In this document: one piece after another, positions 9,702 to 64,000 of the stretch | Position numbering within the stretch: the stretch's first letter is position 1 | Layout of the letters: each line of letters starts with the position of its first letter | DNA from: Serendipita indica DSM 11827 | Taxonomy: Eukaryota > Basidiomycota > Agaricomycetes > Sebacinales > Serendipitaceae | NCBI GenBank assembly: GCA_910890315.1 | Contig: CAJVGD010000016.1 | Location: forward strand, 310,001 to 374,000 | Reading direction: 5' to 3' | Length of the DNA: 64,000 nt | The notes under the pieces: generated by a model | The model's input: only the letters and a program-made list of their open reading frames with translations | Databases searched by the model: none | Told to the model about the DNA's origin: nothing | Position numbers and translations under genes: made by a program

Positions 9702-12700
9702 TTATGCAACTATGACAAGCTGATCTGTAATACTCCAGGGATAAAATACGACCGGCTTCATGGACAGTTTTGACAGTTCGCAGAGATAGCACCCACCAAG
9801 TTCCAGAGAGAATATGTGGGCTTGTGCTTCTTCGGCGCCATAAAATGGCTGACTAGTGGTTTCGGACGGCTTGTACCAAGTGAGGCAAACAATCACTCGC
9901 ACCTCTGAGCCATTTAAGGATTTCTCCTGAATGATGTCAGTGAGATAGCCCAGACATGAGAATATTGTCTGATTGTTCATGTCTGTGCCACTGTATAGCA
10001 CGAGCCGTTTGCAAACTTCTGAGGATCGGCGGGAAATCTTGAGCTCCACCCCGTGATAGTCTATACCAGAAAACAGTTCCCAATTGCGGGTAGAAAACTG
10101 TTTCTTTTCAAGTATTAGCTGTAAAGCCTTGCTGAAGCTCAAAGACTTTCGCAGTGCCCGAGTCAGCGTTGGTTGCGAATGTGAAGTGGACATGATATTC
10201 TGTTCTTTGAGCGTTTCGAATATTGGGTCGGTTTCTACTGTGAGAAACCGATCCATATTTGATAGACGGTCCATTCGATTATCAAAGGTGACCTCGATTT
10301 CACCTATAGCCTATCAGCGCGCATAATATGGAGCATAAGAAGCGCACCAGGCTTGCTATTTGTGTGCGTTCTCTGAATGAAACCGTTGCGACGTTCAAAG
10401 GCAAACGCCCACCAGCCCGGCATAGGCCCATAGAGATGCAGGAACCGCTCAAGGTGAAGGAAGGAATGATGACTTTGCTTCAAGAATGATTCAGGAAATA
10501 TTCCCATTACTCCATGTATGTATGCCATACTCTCTTGTCGAAATTGGTCAATTGTTTCTGATGATATTGATCGTGAGTAGGCTATTTTTATCACTGCGAC
10601 CAGGTGGACAAAGCATTTGAAGAAATTTTGATATTTTTCTTCAGCCTTCTCATTACCCCAATGGCGACCCAGTGTAATCAAGAGCGTAAAGCAATAGACG
10701 CTCCTCCATTGAGCGGCCTTGAGGCTACCATGTCGTTTGCTTCCGAGGTTCGATGGTGGTTTGTCACGAGAGAGATGCTCCGGGAAGACACACCGGGCAA
10801 TATCCCGCCGCATTTCTAGTTTCAGAACTGGGTTAAGCTAACAATGTTAGACAACAGTAGTATAACGGATGGAACGCTTGCCTTGTAGGCAGCATTGTCA
10901 TCATTGTGAGACAGAAGGTCATTTGAGCCCTCCCGGGCCTGCCAGTCTCGAATAATGTCTCCAGCATCAAGTACCGGGGCCTGAAGCTGATAAATTTTTA
11001 TTGAGCAAGGAACTTGAACATAAGTTTTCAGCACTTACGGGACTTTTCCGGTTGATAATTGCAGAAATCATAGAGGCTCGTTGAGGAAAGACCGTTCCTG
11101 ACTGCAGTTTAAACATACTGGTATCAATCTTGAGTCTGACGCAGATGCCATATAGGACATTGACAGTTAGCTGGTCTAATTTGATCTTTAGTTGTTCAGG
11201 GTTTGTATATGTTGACAAGATTTTGTTGGCATGGGTGAGATCGGCCCTTTGGATCTGGCTTTCTTCCCGTTGCATCGTAATCTAGACTTTTGTGAATGGA
11301 AATGTTCAAAATTGACCATAGAAGCTCACCCATTCTCCAAGAAGAACAACCATCGACCACTTTATGGGCCGCTTTCCATGGAATTTCATCTTCCAAGTTG
11401 GAATCTCGCATCGTTTGCAGAGCCGCAAGAGTGCACCATGTTTGAGACTGTGCAATTGATTGAGTATGGAGACGTCAAATCCCTCTCTCCGCAACAGGGC
11501 AAGACCTCGTTGGACCATATGCTCTAGCTCTGACTCTGGACCGATATCATCGATGCCACTCTCAACATCACTGATAGAATCCAGCAAGGCCTCTGAGCCT
11601 TGATAAGCAGGCTCGTCATCCAGCAAAGTAGATGAATCCGGAAGTCCTCTGATCTTACCTCCTATCATCTCTCGGCAATGTGGCTGGGCGATGTTTGCAA
11701 GAATAGCATGAAACGGTTCAATAATAACTTGATTGAAGACGTCGAAATAGGGAAGTCGGATAAGCTCGGTGTACCGAAAACCCCACCGCTCAAAGATTGC
11801 ATCTCGATCGGCCTGTGTTTGGGCATCGCGCCATGCAATGACGATCTGTTTGTGGTCTTCCTTGGTTACTCCCTCTGGCCACGTTCCACAGTTGAAGTCA
11901 TCTTTGAGCTTGTCCAAGGGCAGTCGACAGTATGGACAAAACCACCGGTGACCAACAGCTGCAAAGCCAGCTATACGTCTAGCTGCCAGCTGATCTGCGA
12001 TAACAATTGCCAGCATAACACGGCATAGGGTAAAGCTATTGTTGGGAATACATAGGCCATGTGTATATATTGACTCCAAGTCGCTGATCAGAGGGCGGAT
12101 TATGTTATTTAGATGCTCAGTTGATGGTTCTCGAGGTCCAGGGATGAAAAGGTGGTACATATACTGCTGTTGGTAGCGTAAAACAGGATCGAGGTTGAGA
12201 ATCACTATGTAGATGCCTCCGGTACTATGTTGCCCACCCCTGAGGGAGCTAGGACGAGCATTATACCAATCTATAAAGAGTCCAAGACATAGTCGCAGCT
12301 CCGTTGGAAGCCGTACCGCAAAAGGTTTTCCATCTTGACCTTTGAGCCCCCGCACCATTGCCGACTCCATGATATCATGGATGGTATCTTCATCTATGTT
12401 CATTCCATCGGGCGTTGGCAATCTACATGTAAGGTTTTCACACATGTTAGGGAGGAATAAGAGTTCCGAGAGCCAAGATCCAAAGCTGCGATATGTAAAT
12501 GGAATCGATGACGGGTTTGAGAGGGGGGAAGTGTGTAATTCCTGGTTTGAACAAGTGTCTTCGATGCTATGGGATAGGCTAGGACCATTCGAAGTAAGAA
12601 TTGCTCCACAAATGTCCGCTTCTTGCGTTGAGCGAAAGGTGCAACGTGAGTCCGTTGGGACTGCTCTTCTTTCCTGGTATTGAGACCATTCATTAGTTGG

Positions 12701-13523
12701 TACTGTAGGCATTGGAGCATATGGTTTGCCTTGTCTTGCAGGTGGAGGGTTCGGAAGTGGCAATCGTTCGGAGTCATCTATCGGAGGAGAAAGTGGGATA
12801 AGCTTGTCCGAAGTATATAGGCTATAGCATTCAGCGCAACAGAGATATCTCTGTTTCTCCGAGTCAAGCTCCAGGATGTGATAGATCGACTGTACATCAT
12901 CCGGGGCGAGATCCAACTGCCTCCTGACTACTTGATTCTGGATCGAAGTGAGAGCCAGTAAAGCGAGAGCAAGCCTTTTTAGTAAATCGAAGATAAATTG
13001 GACTTGTGATCGGGAGAGGCCCAGCTTAGTTTGAAGATAGACCGGGATAAACATGATATAAACAACCAAAGAATGCCTCATAAGGCCTTGCATTGAGACC
13101 CTGGGTCGATTTCCTGGAACTATTGAGAGTTGAGCTTATAGGCTCTTCGAGTGGCCTCATCATACCTGCATGTAATCTTTGTCTCTCCCATTCTTGACGC
13201 TTTGTCTCTTCAAGCCAGTTGAAGGCACGCTCGAGCATCCGGAGTCGCAATTCATCTTCCTTGCTGAGTTCCTCAAGCGGACTGTGGAGGATCTGCCGTC
13301 GATAACGCCAGGCTGTAGTTTGAATCCAAAGAAATTCCGCATTCTGAGAACAGTTAGATAGCGAAACTAGGCTCCCATTTGGATCTGTGTCCAGATCTGG
13401 GCTGATATACGGAGGGGATGAGAGAGACGGAGGATAGCGAAAAACCAAAGGGCCTCCGACTCGAAATGAATAGACACGCTTCATAAAGTCGGACCAGGCA
13501 GGCGGGTTGAGTCCTTGGTTCAT
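9702..13523 (-). CDS. Tnp2-family (CACTA-type) transposase, apparently intact
   Basis: The gene is complement(join(9702..10303,10348..10837,10882..10986,11039..11281,11330..13119,13166..13523)), 1,195 residues from the ATG at 13,523; every exon junction keeps frame. Family hallmarks are visible: a zinc-like CC(A)EC..LY motif near residue 213, GLFIDWYN near 400, then GGIYIVILNLDPVLRY, FIPGPREPS and a HRWFCPYC motif, as in basidiomycete Tnp2 proteins. The C-terminal half has LITLGRHWG and PMPGWWAFAFERRNG, matching the region that follows the Tnp2 core (DUF4218-like). Introns are 44-52 nt; the one at 10,838-10,881 has a GC donor. No stop interrupts the spliced frame, so the copy could be active. 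A short upstream exon cannot be excluded. Confidence 0.88.
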
Positions 13524-17795: not shown

Positions 17796-19311
17796 GATTC
17801 ATGAATGTAAACGTCATACCGCCAGATGCAAACTATTGCGCAGATGTATTGGTCCACTCAAAGTGCCGGTCAAGGATACGATGATTGGGCATAATGTGCG
17901 TGAAATGTTCCTTCGGCTCTCAACCTTGCAGGGCAGTCAGAGCCAATTGTCTATGGGTGCGCTTTTCATCCGGCCAGTGGCTTTTCTGAATGCTCTTGTA
18001 GTATCACTGACTTTTCGTTGATTTAGTTATCTTATGGCGAGACGATTATCAAGACCCACGGGCCAAAGTTGACCAAGCTAAACCTCGAGGCAATGCAAAT
18101 GGTCTCAGATGCGTTTACAACTGTCTGGCTCATAGAATTTTCCCCATTCTGTTTGTCGCATAACATACTCATCCACCATTTATTGACATCTTTGTCAGTG
18201 CGCTTCATCCTTACTTGGATGCCAGGCACCTACTTCTGGTTCGCGCTCCGATTTGTTGTTTGCCTATCTAAAACTCTAAAGGTGTCAAGTGCCAAGTCGA
18301 CAGACATAGTCCACCGGATATGAGAGTGGCCATTCCAAATGGTTCTGGATCTCCACCCTTCACTACCTCCCCTTTGCTCACAATAGAGCAGAACAAAGGA
18401 CAACTCGGCCACTGCGTCGCACTTGACTTGATCGAAGAATTTGGACCAATGGACAATGTCTCGTTATTTCCTTACGGAATGGAGCCAGGTCCCCAGACAC
18501 AGTCACTTTCTTAGAAATATAGACGCAAGATGGTAAGATGCTTGTTTATGAGCTCGATGGATAGTTCTTTGATCTATATCCCAGATGCCCACAGTATGGC
18601 GAAGCATGCGTATGCCTACAGCAAAGTTTTTCCCATCATCAGAGAACAGTTATCAGGTTAAAAGCTGGTGGTTAGGCTATTTAATCCATACACACACTCT
18701 CGCTCGCTCGGACCATATTGAAGAGATTGTAGGTACAGAATTGGTGAGCTAAGATCGCAACGGGCAGGCCTCTTTCTTTGTCTACAGTTTCAAATGGACC
18801 CATTTAACTCGCAGACGCCTCTTGTTGCTGAAATATGTGCGTCTAAGCCGAGAATCTCCCCGGTTGGTTTCCCGGGTTGGTTTCCAATTCAGTTTTGGCA
18901 TACCGGAAGCTGTGATGGGTTCTTGTAAAGTATATCGTCCTGAGTGAAGTGAAAAGCTCCTTGATTTGATGTTGGGTGATATAAAGTGATTGCAATCGCC
19001 GATGGTTTGTGTAGTCAGCGTATGTCTTGTTGGGACAATACCGGGCTCAAACAGAAATGGAAAATGTAAGTTACTACGGTAGCCCTACAGGCAATGACTG
19101 AATGAAACCCAGATGATGCCGCCACAAAAAGAGGTGGCTATCTTCCAAAGTTTGCTTGGGATCACTCGCTGAAACAAACACTTGTACGTAAATAGAGACA
19201 TCGAATAAAGACGCCGGTCGGTTACCAATAAGCAGGAGAGTACGCGTAAATGTTTCAAGATTGCGAAAGCTGTCCGTCCCTGCTTACGGCGGTTTAGAAG
19301 GTCGTCCGCCG
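17796..19311. other. Intergenic, no gene supported
   Basis: Several short plus- and minus-strand frames (for example 18,069-18,323) lack features I recognise. Further decayed parts of the acyltransferase could lie here but I cannot show it. Confidence 0.4.
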
Positions 19312-19636
19312 CATCTGTCAGACGGGTCTCCAGACGGATCTCCAGACGGGTCTCCAGACGGGTCTCCAGACGGGTCTCCAGACAGGTCTCCAGATGAGCC
19401 TCCAGACGGGGTTTTAGACCGGTCTCCAGATGGGTCTCCAGACGGATCTCCAGACGGGTCTCCAGATGAGCCTCCAGACGGATCTCCAGACGGGTCTCCA
19501 GAAGAGCCCCCAGATGGGGTTTTAGACCGGTCTCCAGATGGGTCTCCAGACGGATCTCCAGACGGGTCTCCAGAAGAGCCTCCAGACGGGGTTTTAGACT
19601 GGTCTCCAGAAGAGCATCCAGACAAGTATCCGGACT
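19312..19636. repeat. 12-bp minisatellite (about 27 units of TCTCCAGACGGG)
   Basis: Units of 12 bp vary at a few positions (GACGGG, GACGGA, GATGAG, GAAGAG, GTTTTAGACCGG) and are organised into larger blocks that recur two to three times. Because 12 is a multiple of three, frames stay open on both strands: plus gives SPDG/EPPDG repeats (frame 19,261-19,671), minus gives amphipathic ETRLEIRLE repeats (frame 19,085-19,669 with an ATG, 194 codons). Neither frame has independent support as a gene, so I annotate the DNA repeat only. Confidence 0.9.
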
Positions 19637-20006
19637 GTCCTTTAGGCGAGCTTTCAGGGATTGTGACATAGAGGTAAGTTATCCGGTTGATATCCTTGGG
19701 AATTTCTTAGAGGATAAGGTTGATATTTCACTATAATTTACAACGCCCAAAAGGACTGGTAACAGTTGGGCGTTTAGATGTCTCCCATCTGGCCACCACC
19801 GCCGTGGCAGGCAGTGTGGGTGCTCACTGCATCGCCAACAATTCGAGTCCAGGCGACAACGTACCCTAGGCGCTATTTGGATCATGATCTGTGCGTTTAT
19901 GCTATACGGACACAATATAAGACCCAGCTGGCGGCATCAACTCGAGCCGTTTCTCCCTTCCGATCTGGTATCGCCCTTTTGAAATCTTCACCAATTCGTA
20001 ATCGAC
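19637..20006. other. Upstream region of the repeat-peptide precursor gene
   Basis: No gene; contains the TATA-like element listed separately. Confidence 0.5.
19916..19921 (+). promoter_or_regulatory. TATA-like box (TATAAG)
   Basis: Lies about 86 bp upstream of the ATG at 20,007, a plausible core-promoter position for the small secreted precursor. Confidence 0.5.
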
Positions 20007-20417
20007 ATGTTCTCTTTCCGAATAGCCGCAACTTTCGTTTTCTTCGCTAGTCCCTTCCTCCTCGCAAGCGCTGTTCCCATCGAAAAGTGAGTATCCCACA
20101 CAGAATCGTACATGACTGACATCCTTATCCATAGAATGATTCTTCCAGACCTTACAGAGCATTTCGGCAAGCGCGAAAAGCTGGTGCTACCAGATCTCAC
20201 CGAGCACTTTGGAAGACGGGACAAACTCATATTGCCAGATCTCACCGAGCATTTCGGAAAGCGCGATAAACTTGTCTTGCCAGATCTCACTGAACACTTT
20301 GGAAAACGGGAGAAGCTCGTCTTGCCAGATCTCACCGAGCACTTTGGGAGGAGGGACAAGCTCGTCTTGCCTGATCTTACCGAACACTTCGGAAAGCGTA
20401 AAACTCACGAGTCATAA
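20007..20417 (+). CDS. Secreted Kex2-type repeat peptide precursor (six LPDLTEHFG repeats)
   Basis: The gene is join(20007..20086,20135..20417), 120 residues, with one 48-nt intron (GTGAGT..CATAG). Residues 1-22 form a clear signal peptide (MFSFRIAATFVFFASPF..., then AxA-type LASA). From residue 28 the rest is six copies of [V/I]LPDLTEHFG, each followed by KR or RR; five begin with EKL or DKL, giving a 15-residue period, then a KTHES tail. KR and RR after a signal peptide are the classic sites for Kex2-type endoproteases in the Golgi, so the predicted products are 13-residue peptides (E/D-K-L-V/I-LPDLTEHFG). There are no cysteines and no Tyr in the core. This matches the general class of fungal Kex2-processed repeat proteins, which includes alpha-factor-like pheromones, Ustilago Rep1 and dikaritin precursors. 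I do not recognise this repeat. No obvious tailoring-enzyme gene (UstYa/DUF3328) is adjacent. Confidence 0.85.
20136..20399 (+). repeat. 45-bp coding tandem repeat inside the precursor gene
   Basis: Six near-identical units, the first shorter (39 bp), each encoding LPDLTEHFG plus a dibasic site. Copies differ mostly at synonymous positions and at the E/D, V/I and K/R alternatives. Confidence 0.9.
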
Positions 20418-22532: not shown

Positions 22533-23902
22533 TTACCACCAGCATCCAGGATACCACCACGGGCATTCTCCTGATGGATCTTGGGGGTCGGTGCTCGTCG
22601 GGAAGGGGGAGGGATCTTCAGTGCCCGTGGGCTCTGGAATCTCTGTGTCTGTTGGCTCGGGAATGTCCGTCTCTGTCTTTGTAGGGTCGGGGAGAGTCTC
22701 TGTGTCGGTTTCGGTTTCCGTTGGGCTTGGGACCGTAGCGGTTTCGGTATCGGTCTCCGTTTCGGTGGGCTCTGGGGCGGTCGTCTCAGTCTCGGTTGGA
22801 ACCGTAGTATCGGTCTCCGTAGAGCTAGAGACGGTTTCTGAGCCTGTGGGAGCGGGAGTCGAGCCGCCGGCCTGAATCTTGCGGTAGGTAAGGATCTGCT
22901 CCTGGAAGCGAGTGACCTGGCCGGGTGTGAACGAATTCATGCAAGAGTCGTATCTAGAAAAAGATACGAGTCAGGTACGAGACAACGCGTGCTGGAGATC
23001 CACGTACGAGTAGTCCATAAAGTTGTGAATAGAGTCAGCACCACCACCCGGGCAAGAGTCTTGGCTAGCGGGGCATCCACTGGTTGCAGTCTTCTGGGGA
23101 GGAGTATCGGCAACAAAGTCTCCATTACCGGCTAGAAATCATCTCGTGAGCTCCGAGGGCATCAGAATCGTGCCAAGGAAAACGTACTGCAGCCATCTTG
23201 GAAGACGTGATAGAGACCGAGCCAGTGGCCGACTTCGTGCGTAAGCGTCTTGCCCTCGTCGTAGTTGGTGGTGCTACCGCCTGGCACGCTCGAGTAGAGA
23301 ATGACGACACCGTCATCCTTCGGGTTGCTCTTGTAGTCGGATGGGAAAGTTGCGTATCCGAGAAGGCCCTTGCCAGAGCCAGACTCGAAGCCGACGGTGT
23401 AAATGTTGAGCGTCGACTCGTCGCCCTGGCGGAGCTGGGACTTCATCTGAGTTTGGTTGCTCTCGTCGGGTCCAACGGTGCTAAACCAATCTGCATTGGT
23501 GGTGCGGGTCGTCTTGGAGAGTGCGAACGAAATGCCAGTACCGCTGCCGCCGATACATGAGCAAAATGGAAGCCGATACAAAGACAATAACACTTACGTA
23601 TAGTGCTGGTTCATGGCGTCAATGCTGGCCTTGATCTGCGAATCTGGGACGTTTCCGCCAGCGAGATCGTTGTCCTTCTGGATAACGTGCCAGTAGACCT
23701 GGATGGGGCCGCTAGCGAGTGTGGAGGCGTCCATAACCGACATGATGTTGGCAGAGTCGATTTGGAAACGAGATTCGGCAGCCGCAATGGCCGCGGTATC
23801 CTTGTGGGTGGCGCATCCACGGTAGGGAAGGCTCGTCTCGTTGAAGGGGAGTGCGAGCGCGGTGCCAGAGGCAATGAGGAAGGCAACAATTGTGCTAATC
23901 AT
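22533..23902 (-). CDS. Secreted M43 (pappalysin-like) zinc metalloprotease with Thr/Glu-rich tail
   Basis: The gene is complement(join(22533..22953,23008..23131,23188..23543,23598..23902)), 401 residues, with three introns of 54-56 nt that all keep frame. Residues 1-17 are a signal peptide ([17 protein letters not shown]). The catalytic signature is [11 protein letters not shown] (HExxHxxGxxH): two His and one further His bind zinc and Glu is the catalytic base. The Met-turn follows as NFMDYSYDSC, and the cysteine pattern is that of fungal MEP1-like M43 enzymes. After the protease domain come about 100 residues of Thr/Glu/Pro-rich repeats (TETETD, PTETET), probably an O-glycosylated linker, ending in the short aromatic [10 protein letters not shown]. 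It is expected to act outside the cell in protein degradation. The odd C-terminus may be a wall or surface anchor; that is inference. Confidence 0.92.
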
Positions 23903-58360: not shown

Positions 58361-59751
58361 ATGGTCAATCCTCATCTTTCTTTCTTTCCGCTGCTCCTCT
58401 TCGTCGTGGGTTCAATGGCCAAAGGCCGAGGCGGCGGTTCTAGTGGAAGTGGGAGTGGTTCCATTCACGACGTGAGCCCTCCCGCGTAGCTACTCACACT
58501 GAGTTCTAAGTTTCATCAGAGTTGGAGTGCGCCAGGAACGATCAAGGCCGCTATGGCATTCGAGATCATCTGTGAGTTAGACTCTTATTCCCTGGGGAGG
58601 TATACTGACTCTTGGGAGACTTTGTCGTCATCCTCGGCGAGTTTATCATCATCTGTCGACGTCTCCGGCTCGTCCCGCCTGGCCGGTATACACGCGCGCC
58701 ATACATCCTCCTCGCGATCGGTATGTGACATGTATACGCTGCTTTGCACGCTTTTCGTTGACTCTTACCTGCTAGTCGCGGGTGCATTGGCCTTATCATA
58801 CCTTGTCTCGGCAATTGTTACCAGAATCAGTTCTTACGAGCTCGGTATACCGGACCACGACTATCCAATCGAGACTATGCGAGGCTTGAACACGTTCGAT
58901 TGGTTCTTGAAAAACATTGACGCTTCTTTCCGACCCGCAGTCTGCCTCTGGCTTATCCATCTTCGTGTCAATCTGGCAGGAAAAGCCGAGGGTAGTACGT
59001 CCACTCCGTGGATGGAACATTTATGGAAGCGCATTGTCGACTGGTCGCTCGTAGCGATCAACTTCATTATCGATACTTGCTGGATGGGAATCATAGCGGA
59101 TGGCTACATCTTCTACACCTCAAATTATCTGGTTCCCGCCAATTTTTTCTATTACACGCGCTCTTGGCGTGAACTCAACTTGGCAGATCTCTCTATAGAG
59201 CTGATCCTAACACTCAACGTGATTGTGTCTTTAATTGGGCTGGGAGTCTCCCAGAAGAAGAAGAAATTCAACGACGCGGTTTGTAGACAGATGCAACATA
59301 CAATAGGGTCACTAAAGTCGCATAGATATCTACAAGACTTCTTGCAATAGTCTTGCCTTTCCTGATCATCGGCTTTTTGGAAACTCTTATCATTCCCATC
59401 CACTGGCAGACAACCGCACACACCATACCCGGCTTGGTGGGCACTTTCCACTTGGACTCCTACCTCCCGATATTTCTCGGCACCCCGACGGAATTTTTCC
59501 CCACGGAGTTGGCCGGTATTATTATCAGTGGTCTGTGCAGAGTTGGTATCATTGGCGGTCTTCTCTCTACGATGACGATTCCCAACACAACGTGGTCTCC
59601 AGCAATCCCGTCTGATTCAGTTGAAGCCCCTGGATCCATGTCGCAGAAGCCGTCGCAATCGTTGCATCAGCCATCCTGGCAGATGGCGCCTTTTGCCCAG
59701 GGACGAAACCCACAATATCAACCGCCGCAGTACCCACCACCCACCCGTTAA
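58361..59751 (+). CDS. Signal-peptide, Gly/Ser-rich, multi-pass membrane protein (paralog 3 of 3)
   Basis: join(58361..58471,58520..58571,58619..58720,58776..59278,59326..59751), 397 residues. Signal peptide MVNPHLSFFPLLLFVVGSMA, a GRGGGSSGSGSGS stretch, then the membrane core with RGLNTFDWF, FRPAVCLWLIHLRVNLAGK, NVIVSLIGLGVSQKKKKF, ISTRLLAIVLPFLIIGF and GLCRVGIIGGLLSTMTIPNTTWSP. The core is more diverged than between paralogs 1 and 2, but the internal exon sizes are the same. It retains a full Pro/Gln/Tyr-rich cytoplasmic tail (QPPQYPPPTR end). Family function unknown. Confidence 0.78.
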
Positions 59752-59993: not shown

Positions 59994-62900
59994 CTAGAAC
60001 AGGCCAACTACTCTACCCGTCTCCTCATCCAGTCCGACCTCCCAGAATCCAGGTCTTGTAGAAAGACCAGGCATCGTCTGCATATCTCCAAGAAGCGGAT
60101 AAAGGAATCCAGCGCCCGCAGAAAGACGAACGGCTCGAATCGGCACAGTAAAGCCTAGCGCCCAGTTAGCACTGTCCAAATTTCAATAAAGCAACGCACC
60201 AGTCGGGGTTCCTTTGAGCTTTGGATCGTGCGAGAAAGAGTACTGCGTCTTCGCCATGCAGACTAACCTCGTCAGCAACGACAACAGCTACCCAGAAGAT
60301 ACACGTACTAGGCAAGTTTCCATACCCCTGCTTCTCGTAAAGCTCGACCTGGCTCCGCGCAAGTTCACTAAGCTCAATCCCATCCGCACGGTAAATCTCC
60401 TTGGCAATCGCCGAAATTTTGTCAACGATGGGAATGTCCAGCGGATACAGAAACTTGAATGTTGACTCGCCCTCACACGCAGCGACAACGGCCTCGGCAA
60501 GATCTTTGGCTCCAGCACCTCCGAGTGCCCAATGGTTCGAGACGACCGCCGCGTCCGCGCCAGCTTGCATGGCACGCGAGCAGATCAATTCGAGCTCAGC
60601 GGATGAATCCGACCTAATTCTCCTCAATACCCAATGGAAGCATCGAAGAAAGCTACGTACGAGAATTGGTTGACGCCAACGATGACTTTCAACCCAAACT
60701 TTTTCGCATTTTCGATATGTCGCTCGAGATTTCCAATTCCCACACCAAGTGTTTCGAGATCCTCTTTCGTATACGTATCCGCAAGAGGTTTCCCTGGCGT
60801 GACCTCGGGCCCACCGCCATGCATCTTGAGTGCCCTCGTCGTTGCGACGATGACGACCGCGTCTGGCGTCAGGCCACTCACGCGGCACTTGATATTGCAA
60901 AACTTTTCCATGCCCATGTCGGCGCCGAAACCACCTTCGGTGAGCACGTATCCTTCGCGTGTCGAGTCGGTTTCGCCGGGTTCTGTGCCTGCGAGTTTGA
61001 GTGCGATGCGATCGGCAAGGATTGAGGAGTTGCCGTGCGCAATATTGGCAAACGGTCCGGCATGTACGAAGACGGGTGTGCCCTATGAGAGTTAGCAGGC
61101 TCGAGATGACTTGAGGAGATCCTACCTCCAGGGTCTGCATAAGATTCGGTTTGATTGCATCCTTCATGAGTACCGCCAGCGCCCCTCCAACGCCAATATC
61201 GTCAGCAGTAATCGGTTCACCGCGCTTGCTCGTCGCGACGACCATGGCACCGAGTCTGTAGCCGATGAGCTAAATTAACATCCAAACTATATACGCACCT
61301 CTCGCGCATGTCTTTCAGGTCCGTGCTGAGCGCAAGGACCGCCATACATTCGCTCGCAACAGAGATATCAAACCCAGTATCACGCTCGAAGCCTTTTTCT
61401 GCCTCTCCCTTTCCAACGACAATCTTCCTCAAGAACCGATCATTCGTATCAACGACACGATTCCACGTAATTGTCGCTGGGTCAACATCGAGACGCGCAA
61501 AGCGGTTAATCTCCTCTGGCGTGAGCTCGTTGGGATCCGTCTTGTCGATCCCGAGCTTTTTCAGACGCTTGAACATGAGCGGTGCAAAGGCACGCTTGCC
61601 CTTGACTGTCGGGACGAGACGATTGTAAAGAGCCTTGTCTGTTTGTGTCGACTCGTGGAACATGCGCGCATCCAGAGCGGCGGCTAATCATGTCTCAGTT
61701 TCTGTAACGATTGAGTAAGAAGAGCGTACCGAGTAGGTTGTTTGCCGCAGATACCGCGTGAATATCGCCCGTGAGGTGAAGATTGAATTCGTCCATTGGG
61801 ATGACCTGACTGTATCCTCCACCAGCAGCACCCCCTTTGATACCAAAGGTCGGACCTTGACTTGGCTGACGGACACAAGCAAATGCTGGACGTCCCAGAT
61901 GGGCGCCAATGGCCTGAGCCAGGCCAATTGTCGTCGTCGATTTGCCTTCTCCGAGAGGCGTGGGCGTGATACTAGTCGAAGATAAGAACCTGAAGCTGAC
62001 GAAAATGTAATTATCTACCCAGATATGACGATATATTTGCCATCCTTTCTCTTTGCGAGACGATCCAGGATGGAAAGCTCGACTTTGGCTTTGTACTTTC
62101 CATACGACTCGAGCTCGTCTGGTCGGATCCCAATCTCCGTCGCCAGGTGAGTAATAGGCTTTGGTGTCTGAGCGACCGCAATCTCGATATCGCTATGAAA
62201 TGTCAAGAATTGTCGTTGATCCACGACTAGCGCATACCTGGGCACCTTTTCCAGAACGTTGAGCTTGAGGGGGACAAGTTTACGCGCGCGTTCTTTCTCC
62301 CATAGGCGTTCAGAACTCTTGAGAGTGTTCGAGATGAGCATTGCGACGGTCATCGGTCCAACGCCACCTGGGACGGGGGTGATATGAGACGCAACGCCCG
62401 ATGCTTGCGAAAATTCGACGTCGCCGACGAGTCGCTGACCACTCTTCTTCGTCGAATCTACATATCAATGAGAAGGGGAGCGAGTTTGAGCAGTATGCGT
62501 ACCTGGGATATAGTTCGTGCCAACATCAATGACTATGGTTCCCGGTTTGAGCCACTCGGCTTTGACGTATTCAGGTTTTCCAATGGCGGATACAACGACG
62601 TCTGCGTTTCTCAACTATGCAAGTCAGCACCGCCAATGTCGAAAAGAGAGAAAGCGTACGGCGTTGATCATCGTCTCCTGGGGGTGCGGCTGTGACATTG
62701 TGTGACAGTTGCATCCTTCTTGCGAAGCATTGCAGCAACAGGATTACCGACAATGTCGCTACGACCGAGTACGACCACGTTGGATCCCGCCAAGTTGAAA
62801 CCGGTGGTGGTGAGAAGATGAATGACTCCAGAGGGCGTGCATGGAGTAAAGAGTGGTTCTGACGAACGCGAAGAAAGGTGTCCGATGTTGTAGGCGTGGA

Positions 62901-64000
62901 ACCTAGATTGTTGAGAAGCGATAGCAGTGATTGGTAAAGCACATACCCATCCACGTCCTTCATAGGACTAACACTCTCCATCACTTGACGTTCACCTTCC
63001 AGACCGACATTCTCGCCAAGCGGCATCTGTACGAGGATGCCGTGTACTGAGCTATCATGGTTCAGCTTTTGCACCTCTTCGATAATCTGGGCAGCGGTCG
63101 CGTCGGCTGGCATCTGACGAGAATTTGTTAACTCATAAAGGAGAGCACATTTGGGGTCATACCGCGACGTGTGCATAGTCTATGCCGACCTCGGCACATG
63201 CCTTTGCCTTCATCTTAACATAGGTGGTTGAATCTGGGCGCTCACCCGCTTGGATAATGACGAGCTTTGGAGTAGGGAAGGTAGGATTCGTCTTCTTGAG
63301 AGCCTCGATTCGATCTCGAACAGAGGTTCGGATCTCCCTGTAGAAGGGGTCAGTGAGACGACCTTTGCTCAGAAAAGAAAGTTGGAGTGAAGCAGGGATA
63401 ACTAGTACTACCTCAGCCTCGAGGCCTATAACCCTCGGGCAGGGTGTCGAAACCGCTCACTGCGCGTTCGGAGCACGAGTTCGGACAGAATAGTATACGA
63501 ATCAGCAGCAACAGAGACTAGGGACGAGAGCAATCTATCAAAAGATTGTGACTCGAACTCACTTTGCAATCGCCGTCCCATCAATGATCTTTGCCTGACT
63601 ATCGCTCATGTCGTGCACAACCTTTTCGACGATTCGATCACCCTCGTACGCGTCTTCTTCTGACCCGAGCTGAAACTGCTGCAACGGATAGTCGTCTTGG
63701 ATTGTCTGTGCGGCCGCTGCTGCTGCGAGTACTGCCGCGTGCTTTGACTGTTGTTTTGTGTCGTCTAACGCCTTTTCTGCAAGAGATAGGTCGTCTGTGC
63801 TCGTTGAGGGTGTCGACGGCGCGGGTGGCGGGTGTTGTGGTTTGTTCCAAGTCGTGTATAGACGGCGGGAGAGATTACTGGTAGATAAAGTGGTCGTACG
63901 ATAACCCAGCTGCTGTTTGTGAGTGAAAGGAGCGTGAGCATGTGCTGTGTGCAGAAGTCTTCGGTTCCCAGCAAAGGCGCGGCTGTCAACCGTGCTATTC
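59994..64000 (-). CDS. ADE3/MIS1-like: Trifunctional C1-tetrahydrofolate synthase, 5' end beyond the window
   Basis: The spliced frame has a methylenetetrahydrofolate dehydrogenase/cyclohydrolase domain ([58 protein letters not shown]) and a formyltetrahydrofolate synthetase domain (P-loop [44 protein letters not shown], and the end ...[22 protein letters not shown], stop 59,994). Together these interconvert one-carbon folates and make 10-formyl-THF for purines. About 12 introns; the first is 225 nt (63,338-63,562), the others mostly 43-50. Upstream of [16 protein letters not shown] (ATG 63,609) the frame stays open to base 64,000 with an Arg/Ser/Thr-rich, presequence-like segment, so the protein starts outside the window and may be mitochondrial. 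A C5 run near 62,681-62,688 is one base short of keeping frame, probably an assembly error. Confidence 0.95.

Follow-up and report, generated by a model that had tools for sequence, protein, structure and literature searches.

A gene of two exons was identified on the forward strand of the window (i.e., the whole stretch of 64,000 nucleotides that was analyzed), and its open reading frame translation, as read from the DNA, gives a spliced product of 120 residues. The coding sequence, including the stop codon, spans positions 20007-20417, which is the interval that a first-pass annotation had assigned to a candidate fungal repeat-peptide precursor. The features of the gene, together with candidate processing enzymes encoded in the genome, are compiled in Table 1.

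Table 1. Features of the precursor gene (window positions) and paired protease domains on contig C1 (contig positions).
Feature	Position	Strand	Basis or remark
TATA-like element TATAAG	19916-19921	+	91 nt before the start codon; read by eye
Exon 1: signal-peptide-like start MFSFRIAATFVFFASPFLLASA and VPIEK	20007-20086	+	sequence reading, hydropathy
Predicted intron, 48 nt, phase 2, in-frame TGA inside	20087-20134	+	GTGAGT...CTGAC...CATAG
Exon 2: six repeat units, KTHES tail, stop TAA at 20415-20417	20135-20417	+	sequence reading
Unit 1, MILPDLTEHFG-KR	20136-20174	+	without a dibasic site on the left
Unit 2, EKLVLPDLTEHFG-RR	20175-20219	+	repeat analysis
Unit 3, DKLILPDLTEHFG-KR	20220-20264	+	repeat analysis
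Unit 4, DKLVLPDLTEHFG-KR	20265-20309	+	repeat analysis
Unit 5, EKLVLPDLTEHFG-RR	20310-20354	+	repeat analysis
Unit 6, DKLVLPDLTEHFG-KR	20355-20399	+	repeat analysis
S8 protease and P-proprotein domains, pair 1	C1 950566-951363 with 951747-951917	+	domain matches
S8 protease and P-proprotein domains, pair 2	C1 971683-972291 with 970802-971104	-	domain matches

Exon 1 encodes MFSFRIAATFVFFASPFLLASAVPIEK (27 residues), the last codon of which is finished by exon 2. A signal-like start had been claimed for this protein, and the N-terminus is indeed hydrophobic, with a mean Kyte-Doolittle value of 2.11 over the best 15 residues of the precursor start and a signal-like stretch that ends in A-S-A. 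The 48-nt intron that had been proposed between the exons is likewise plausible, since introns of similar size occur in the genome. Specifically, a phosphate-transporter gene on the same contig (C16; contig positions 223362-224696) has three introns of 48, 49, and 51 nt, one of which ends in CCATAG like the precursor intron. This suggests that an intron of 48 nt is normal in the S. indica genome. The translation of one exon of the phosphate-transporter gene was identical, by eye, to PDB 7sp5 at 191 of 192 aligned residues, with the sole mismatch located at the exon edge; we take PDB 7sp5, which is titled 'Phosphate transporter', to be PiPT of Serendipita (Piriformospora) indica. This match most likely places the window in S. 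indica or a species very close to it (Sebacinales, Agaricomycetes).

Exon 2 comprises six 45-nt units with the core LPDLTEHFG, followed in order by KR, RR, KR, KR, RR, and KR, with a single dibasic site at each unit boundary. The six repeats and the 120 residues described in the first-pass annotation were thus recovered, but the description of each repeat as bounded by KR or RR does not extend to the left side of unit 1, which is preceded by the signal-like start and VPIEK rather than by a dibasic site. The number of fully bounded 13-mers is therefore five and not six. These start with E/D-K-L, as had been stated, and the predicted Kex2 products are EKLVLPDLTEHFG (two copies), DKLVLPDLTEHFG (two copies), and DKLILPDLTEHFG (one copy). 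The last of these was omitted from the two peptide masses put forward earlier; DKLILPDLTEHFG and EKLVLPDLTEHFG share a computed mass of 1496.7874, and that of DKLVLPDLTEHFG is 1482.7718. Computed masses of modified forms are 1424.7663 and 1438.7820 for the des-Gly amides and 1478.7769 for pyroGlu. Kex2 cutting would also leave the KTHES tail and a longer piece from the N-terminus, which would read VPIEKMILPDLTEHFG assuming signal cleavage behind ASA. The ends of the units (E/D, L/M, V/I, and K/R) are looser than the nine-residue core, and Tyr and Cys are absent from every unit.

The peptide in the sense frame is the most likely target of selection, because variation within the core is synonymous and because synonymous differences are in excess in this frame. 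Comparison of the units shows variation at 10 of the 27 nucleotide sites of the core, and these sites are distributed across all nine codons; all of the changes are synonymous, with zero residue changes. When the same variable columns were placed randomly over the core, the protein was unchanged in 0 of 20,000 trials. Pairwise codon differences between units comprised 107 synonymous and 37 nonsynonymous differences in the sense frame (six units), 53 synonymous and 32 nonsynonymous differences in the open antisense frame -2 (five units), and 1 to 5 synonymous versus 78 to 141 nonsynonymous differences in the four remaining frames (five or six units). These counts bear on the alternative that the locus is a non-coding tandem repeat (minisatellite) or, instead, an antisense gene at 19991-20404 (-). 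The antisense frame is open over 138 codons and a 12-bp minisatellite ends approximately 400 bp upstream of the precursor gene, but the differences among units are more synonymous in the sense frame than in the antisense frame, core sites change while residues do not, and the relative described below (P0001) retains the sense protein. We consider this alternative to be extremely improbable. The upstream minisatellite (19319-19610) consists of about 24 copies of 12 bp with a 72-bp higher-order unit, and several of its frames are open.

All six frames of the window were also screened, in open stretches of 50 codons or more, for any four residues that occur at least three times before KR or RR. 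Three stretches were recovered, namely the precursor gene (EHFG, six times), a frame of the WD40-repeat region at 39307-41292 (DYGM, 14 times), and a stretch at 19209-19394 (RRVS, three times).

The core pattern was identified in the S. indica genome (24,708,602 bases in 55 contigs) in the six precursor units only (control, 0), and a protein search of the same genome returned the precursor locus alone, with two matches that correspond to one per exon. Contigs of prokaryote genomes and viral contigs yielded 56 and 19 pattern matches, respectively, and tblastn detected no relatives in them. A comparison of the LPDLTEHFG repeat with relatives had been proposed in the first-pass annotation, and one relative that shares the core and the spacing of the dibasic sites does exist. 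This single relative, P0001 (152 residues; ENA, two contigs, the longest of 3467 bases), was recovered from a database of 5.8 billion proteins, in which searches with differing queries (3, 260, and 1 candidates) returned only P0001 at E values of up to 10. The precursor itself is missing from that database, which suggests that fungal proteins are thinly covered there, and a single relative is a poor guide to how widely the repeat precursor occurs.

P0001 carries three units, compared with six in the window protein, and reads ...LVLPDLTEHFGKR-DKLVMPDLTEHFGKR-DKLVLPDLTEHFGKR-ELKTSTAHKDTIEC..., with one departure from the core (VMPDL for VLPDL). The N-terminal half of P0001, in its own frame, has no resemblance to the window protein. 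When positions 41-67 were subjected to degenerate back-translation in a shifted frame, 22 of the 27 residues of MFSFRIAATFVFFASPFLLASAVPIEK were allowed, a number that was reached by 0 of 20,000 shuffles of MFSFRIAATFVFFASPFLLASAVPIEK (best 20, mean 14.3). GAAAAGT, which is the end of exon 1 plus the donor in the window, is allowed by the codons of P0001 at one place only and yields an intron of 49 nt in the same phase; overall, the codons allow three phase-2 donors, with introns of 55, 49, or 40 nt. These codons also permit CTGACATCCTT of the window intron, at a distance of 20 nt from the acceptor compared with 19 nt in the window, while random 11-mers from the window were allowed anywhere in that 60-nt stretch of P0001 in 10 of 5,000 cases. 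An ungapped comparison of the two introns showed agreement at 1 of 16 codons, which suggests that the rest of the P0001 intron has diverged or shifted.

Through this degenerate back-translation we infer an exon 1 and an intron for P0001, the N-terminal part of which was probably mis-predicted, with exon 1 and the intron translated in the wrong frame. Such a change of frame is expected from an intron-blind gene caller that reads through an intron. P0001 differs from the window gene in repeat number, tail, and intron, which suggests that it derives from another species rather than from another strain.

The architecture of the window protein matches that of a named class of fungal proteins, the Kex2-processed repeat proteins, or KEPs (named in 2019; PMC6339444). 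KEPs are defined by a signal peptide, called with SignalP, and by at least three tandem repeats of at least 8 residues, with a limit of 100 residues per repeat, between KR, KK, RK, or RR (PMC7329392). The precursor, with six dibasic sites, five fully bounded 13-residue units, and a signal peptide predicted here from hydrophobicity and the A-S-A end, appears to fit this definition, as was anticipated when its design was first likened to fungal Kex2-processed repeat proteins. Like KEPs, it has a signal-like start, three or more near-identical units, and KR/RR boundaries, and 13 residues falls within the 9-24-residue class, which is reported to outnumber the other size classes in Dikarya if yeast-like Basidiomycota are set aside (PMC6339444). 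A census of the class counted 7878 members, spread over 1345 of 1461 strains, with 2560 members lacking homologs (PMC7329392).

The precursor had been called a candidate new fungal repeat-peptide precursor. This holds in part, in that its core is without a match in the texts searched, but its architecture is that of the KEPs (PMC6339444, PMC7329392, PMC9769878). A literature text search for 'LPDLTEHFG', the scope of which did not extend to supplementary KEP tables, returned 0 papers. The strings lpdl, hfg, and lteh had 0 occurrences in the main texts of the same three papers, as did 'Serendipita' and 'Piriformospora', and supplementary tables may list the precursor. Only the core is thus possibly new. 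The best matches of the precursor to Pfam (HIF-1a_CTAD, 21.8 bits, under the cut-off of 25) and to NCBIfam (18.9 against a cut-off of 50) were taken as meaningless, and a single match to PDB sequences (E value of 0.27) was disregarded.

Candidate enzymes for processing of the precursor were identified in the genome. On contig C1, S8 protease and P-proprotein domains are paired at two places in the right order and on the right strand (from domain matches), which is the make-up of kexins and suggests kexin-like processing enzymes. S10 carboxypeptidase, a candidate source of Kex1, had 17 exon-level matches in the genome. Glycine precedes the dibasic site in all six units (HFG-[K/R]R), so that the released peptides would end in Gly, as had been predicted. 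Animal prohormones carry Gly before a dibasic site as a signal for amidation, and an amidated peptide was therefore entertained. This possibility was set aside as the less likely one, since PAM is reported to be missing throughout fungi (PMC6529398) and since the PHM-type domain Cu2_monoox_C (PF03712) had 0 matches in the genome, a result without a positive control in that the 14 control genomes also had 0. The reported absence of PAM makes a free C-terminal Gly more likely than an amide.

UstYa (PF11807) also had 0 matches in the whole genome and, as with PF03712, 0 of the 14 control genomes matched, leaving this search without a positive control; the control genomes named elsewhere in the domain searches are bacteria and archaea. 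A linear peptide is expected because the units have neither Tyr nor Cys and because UstYa was not found. According to the KEP census, a DUF3328 gene lies close to 103 of the 1680 KEPs of Basidiomycota (6.1%; PMC7329392), so that cyclisation by UstYa is not what would ordinarily be expected.

Collectively, it is quite probable that the locus is a KEP gene of a basidiomycete, from which a secreted precursor is cut by kexin and trimmed to release five linear 13-mers. Following splicing of the 48-nt intron, as predicted from the DNA, the precursor would enter the secretory pathway via its signal peptide, kexin would cut after each KR or RR, and a Kex1-type carboxypeptidase would trim the basic residues. 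The predicted outcome is five secreted, presumably linear peptides of 13 residues, [E/D]KL[V/I]LPDLTEHFG, each with a free C-terminal Gly, and the repeats would provide dose in the form of several peptide copies per translation. A constant nine-residue core with looser ends is the pattern expected of a ligand for one partner. We lean slightly toward the 13-mer being an extracellular signal of some kind, with a specific partner in either the fungus itself or the plant root.

Several known systems share elements of this design. In precursors of dikaritins (ustiloxin and phomopsin), a signal peptide likewise precedes Kex2 repeats, and on a dikaritin-type reading UstYa-type or other tailoring enzymes would cyclise the present core or modify it in another way. 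Tyr is described as mandatory for cyclisation in ustiloxin, phomopsin, and asperipin-2a (PMC7329392), but it is found in 0 units here, Cys is also missing, and UstYa was unmatched in the genome (an uncontrolled result). No recognisable tailoring enzyme was evident among the 30 of the 76 long window frames that were scanned against Pfam. The contrast with dikaritin precursors drawn in the first-pass annotation is thus upheld, and a dikaritin-type origin of the peptide is improbable. An alpha-factor-like mating pheromone precursor appears very improbable. Precursors of ascomycete alpha-pheromones also consist of a repeated short peptide between Kex2 sites, and KEPs resembling them have been reported in Basidiomycota (PMC6339444), but the spacers here are EK or DK instead of the XA/XP spacers removed by STE13, and the host is a basidiomycete. 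The earlier comparison to alpha-factor precursors therefore stands for the repeated Kex2 design and fails for the spacers. Structural or surface peptides like those of Rep1 in Ustilago maydis would also be Kex2-cut repeats of a basidiomycete. However, Rep1 yields ten amphipathic peptides of 35-53 residues and one of 228 residues (PMC4617103), whereas the peptides here are 13 residues in length with several charges, and we regard a Rep1-like role as very unlikely.

More room is left for a special case of the preferred reading as a KEP gene, in which release would take place in roots and the peptides would have a target in the plant, a role that has been proposed for MiSSP8. MiSSP8 of Laccaria bicolor, a root-associated basidiomycete, is similar in design, in that it likewise derives from a repetitive Kex2-cut precursor, and its knock-down is reported to strongly impair mycorrhization (PMC7329392). 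Moreover, the likely host of the gene is a root endophyte, and 110 small secreted proteins of S. indica without Pfam domains are reported to have internal repeat-rich sequences (PMC3708536). A core conserved in two species would fit a self-signal equally well, however, and a plant-directed effector is therefore possible but doubtful. More speculative, and rather unlikely, is that the Serendipita lineage uses the peptide as a signal that plant roots perceive, i.e., a ligand conserved among root symbionts. If true, such a signal would help to account for the colonisation of many hosts by a single fungus.

S. indica is in wide use as a model for the beneficial colonisation of roots, and the KEP gene proposed here is found at a single locus. 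The defined sequence of 13 residues is under strong selection and is easy to synthesise, which makes the question of peptide signalling in the S. indica symbiosis directly testable. The value of the system rests on its host and on this testability, since its kind is already known. In Coprinopsis cinerea, fruiting was normal in all kep knock-outs, although some kex1 and kex2 mutants had growth or fruiting defects (PMC9769878). The normal fruiting of the kep knock-outs suggests that deletion of a single KEP gene may show nothing.

Of the 76 stop-to-stop frames in the window with a length of 130 codons or more, 30 were scanned against Pfam and 8 of these 30 matched at E values of up to 0.001; domains split by introns could escape such a scan. 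Upstream of the precursor gene, a DUF4218 match at 10307-10837 (-) scored 19.4 bits (under the cut-off of 27), and a tnp2 transposase-like stretch at 11309-13135 (-) scored 27.9 bits (under the cut-off of 28.6). Downstream, an exon of an M43-type metallopeptidase lies at 23165-23593 (-), and a long open frame at 37485-41318 (+) encodes a WD40-repeat protein with 14 WD40 matches. DYGM precedes a dibasic pair in a frame that overlaps this gene, where the underlying DNA repeats seem to be near-identical. Four frames at 60169-63179 (-) make up a C1-tetrahydrofolate synthase-like gene. Frames at 54683-55486, 56995-57780, and 58490-59347 (+), for which Pfam gave no match, may form a tandem gene family; YDGPDRGLHGLN is common to the first two, and the third is grouped by position alone. 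Adjoining frames at 46218-46838 and 47875-48507 (+), also without a Pfam match, both contain RLNPYYGQA and perhaps represent a duplicated gene.
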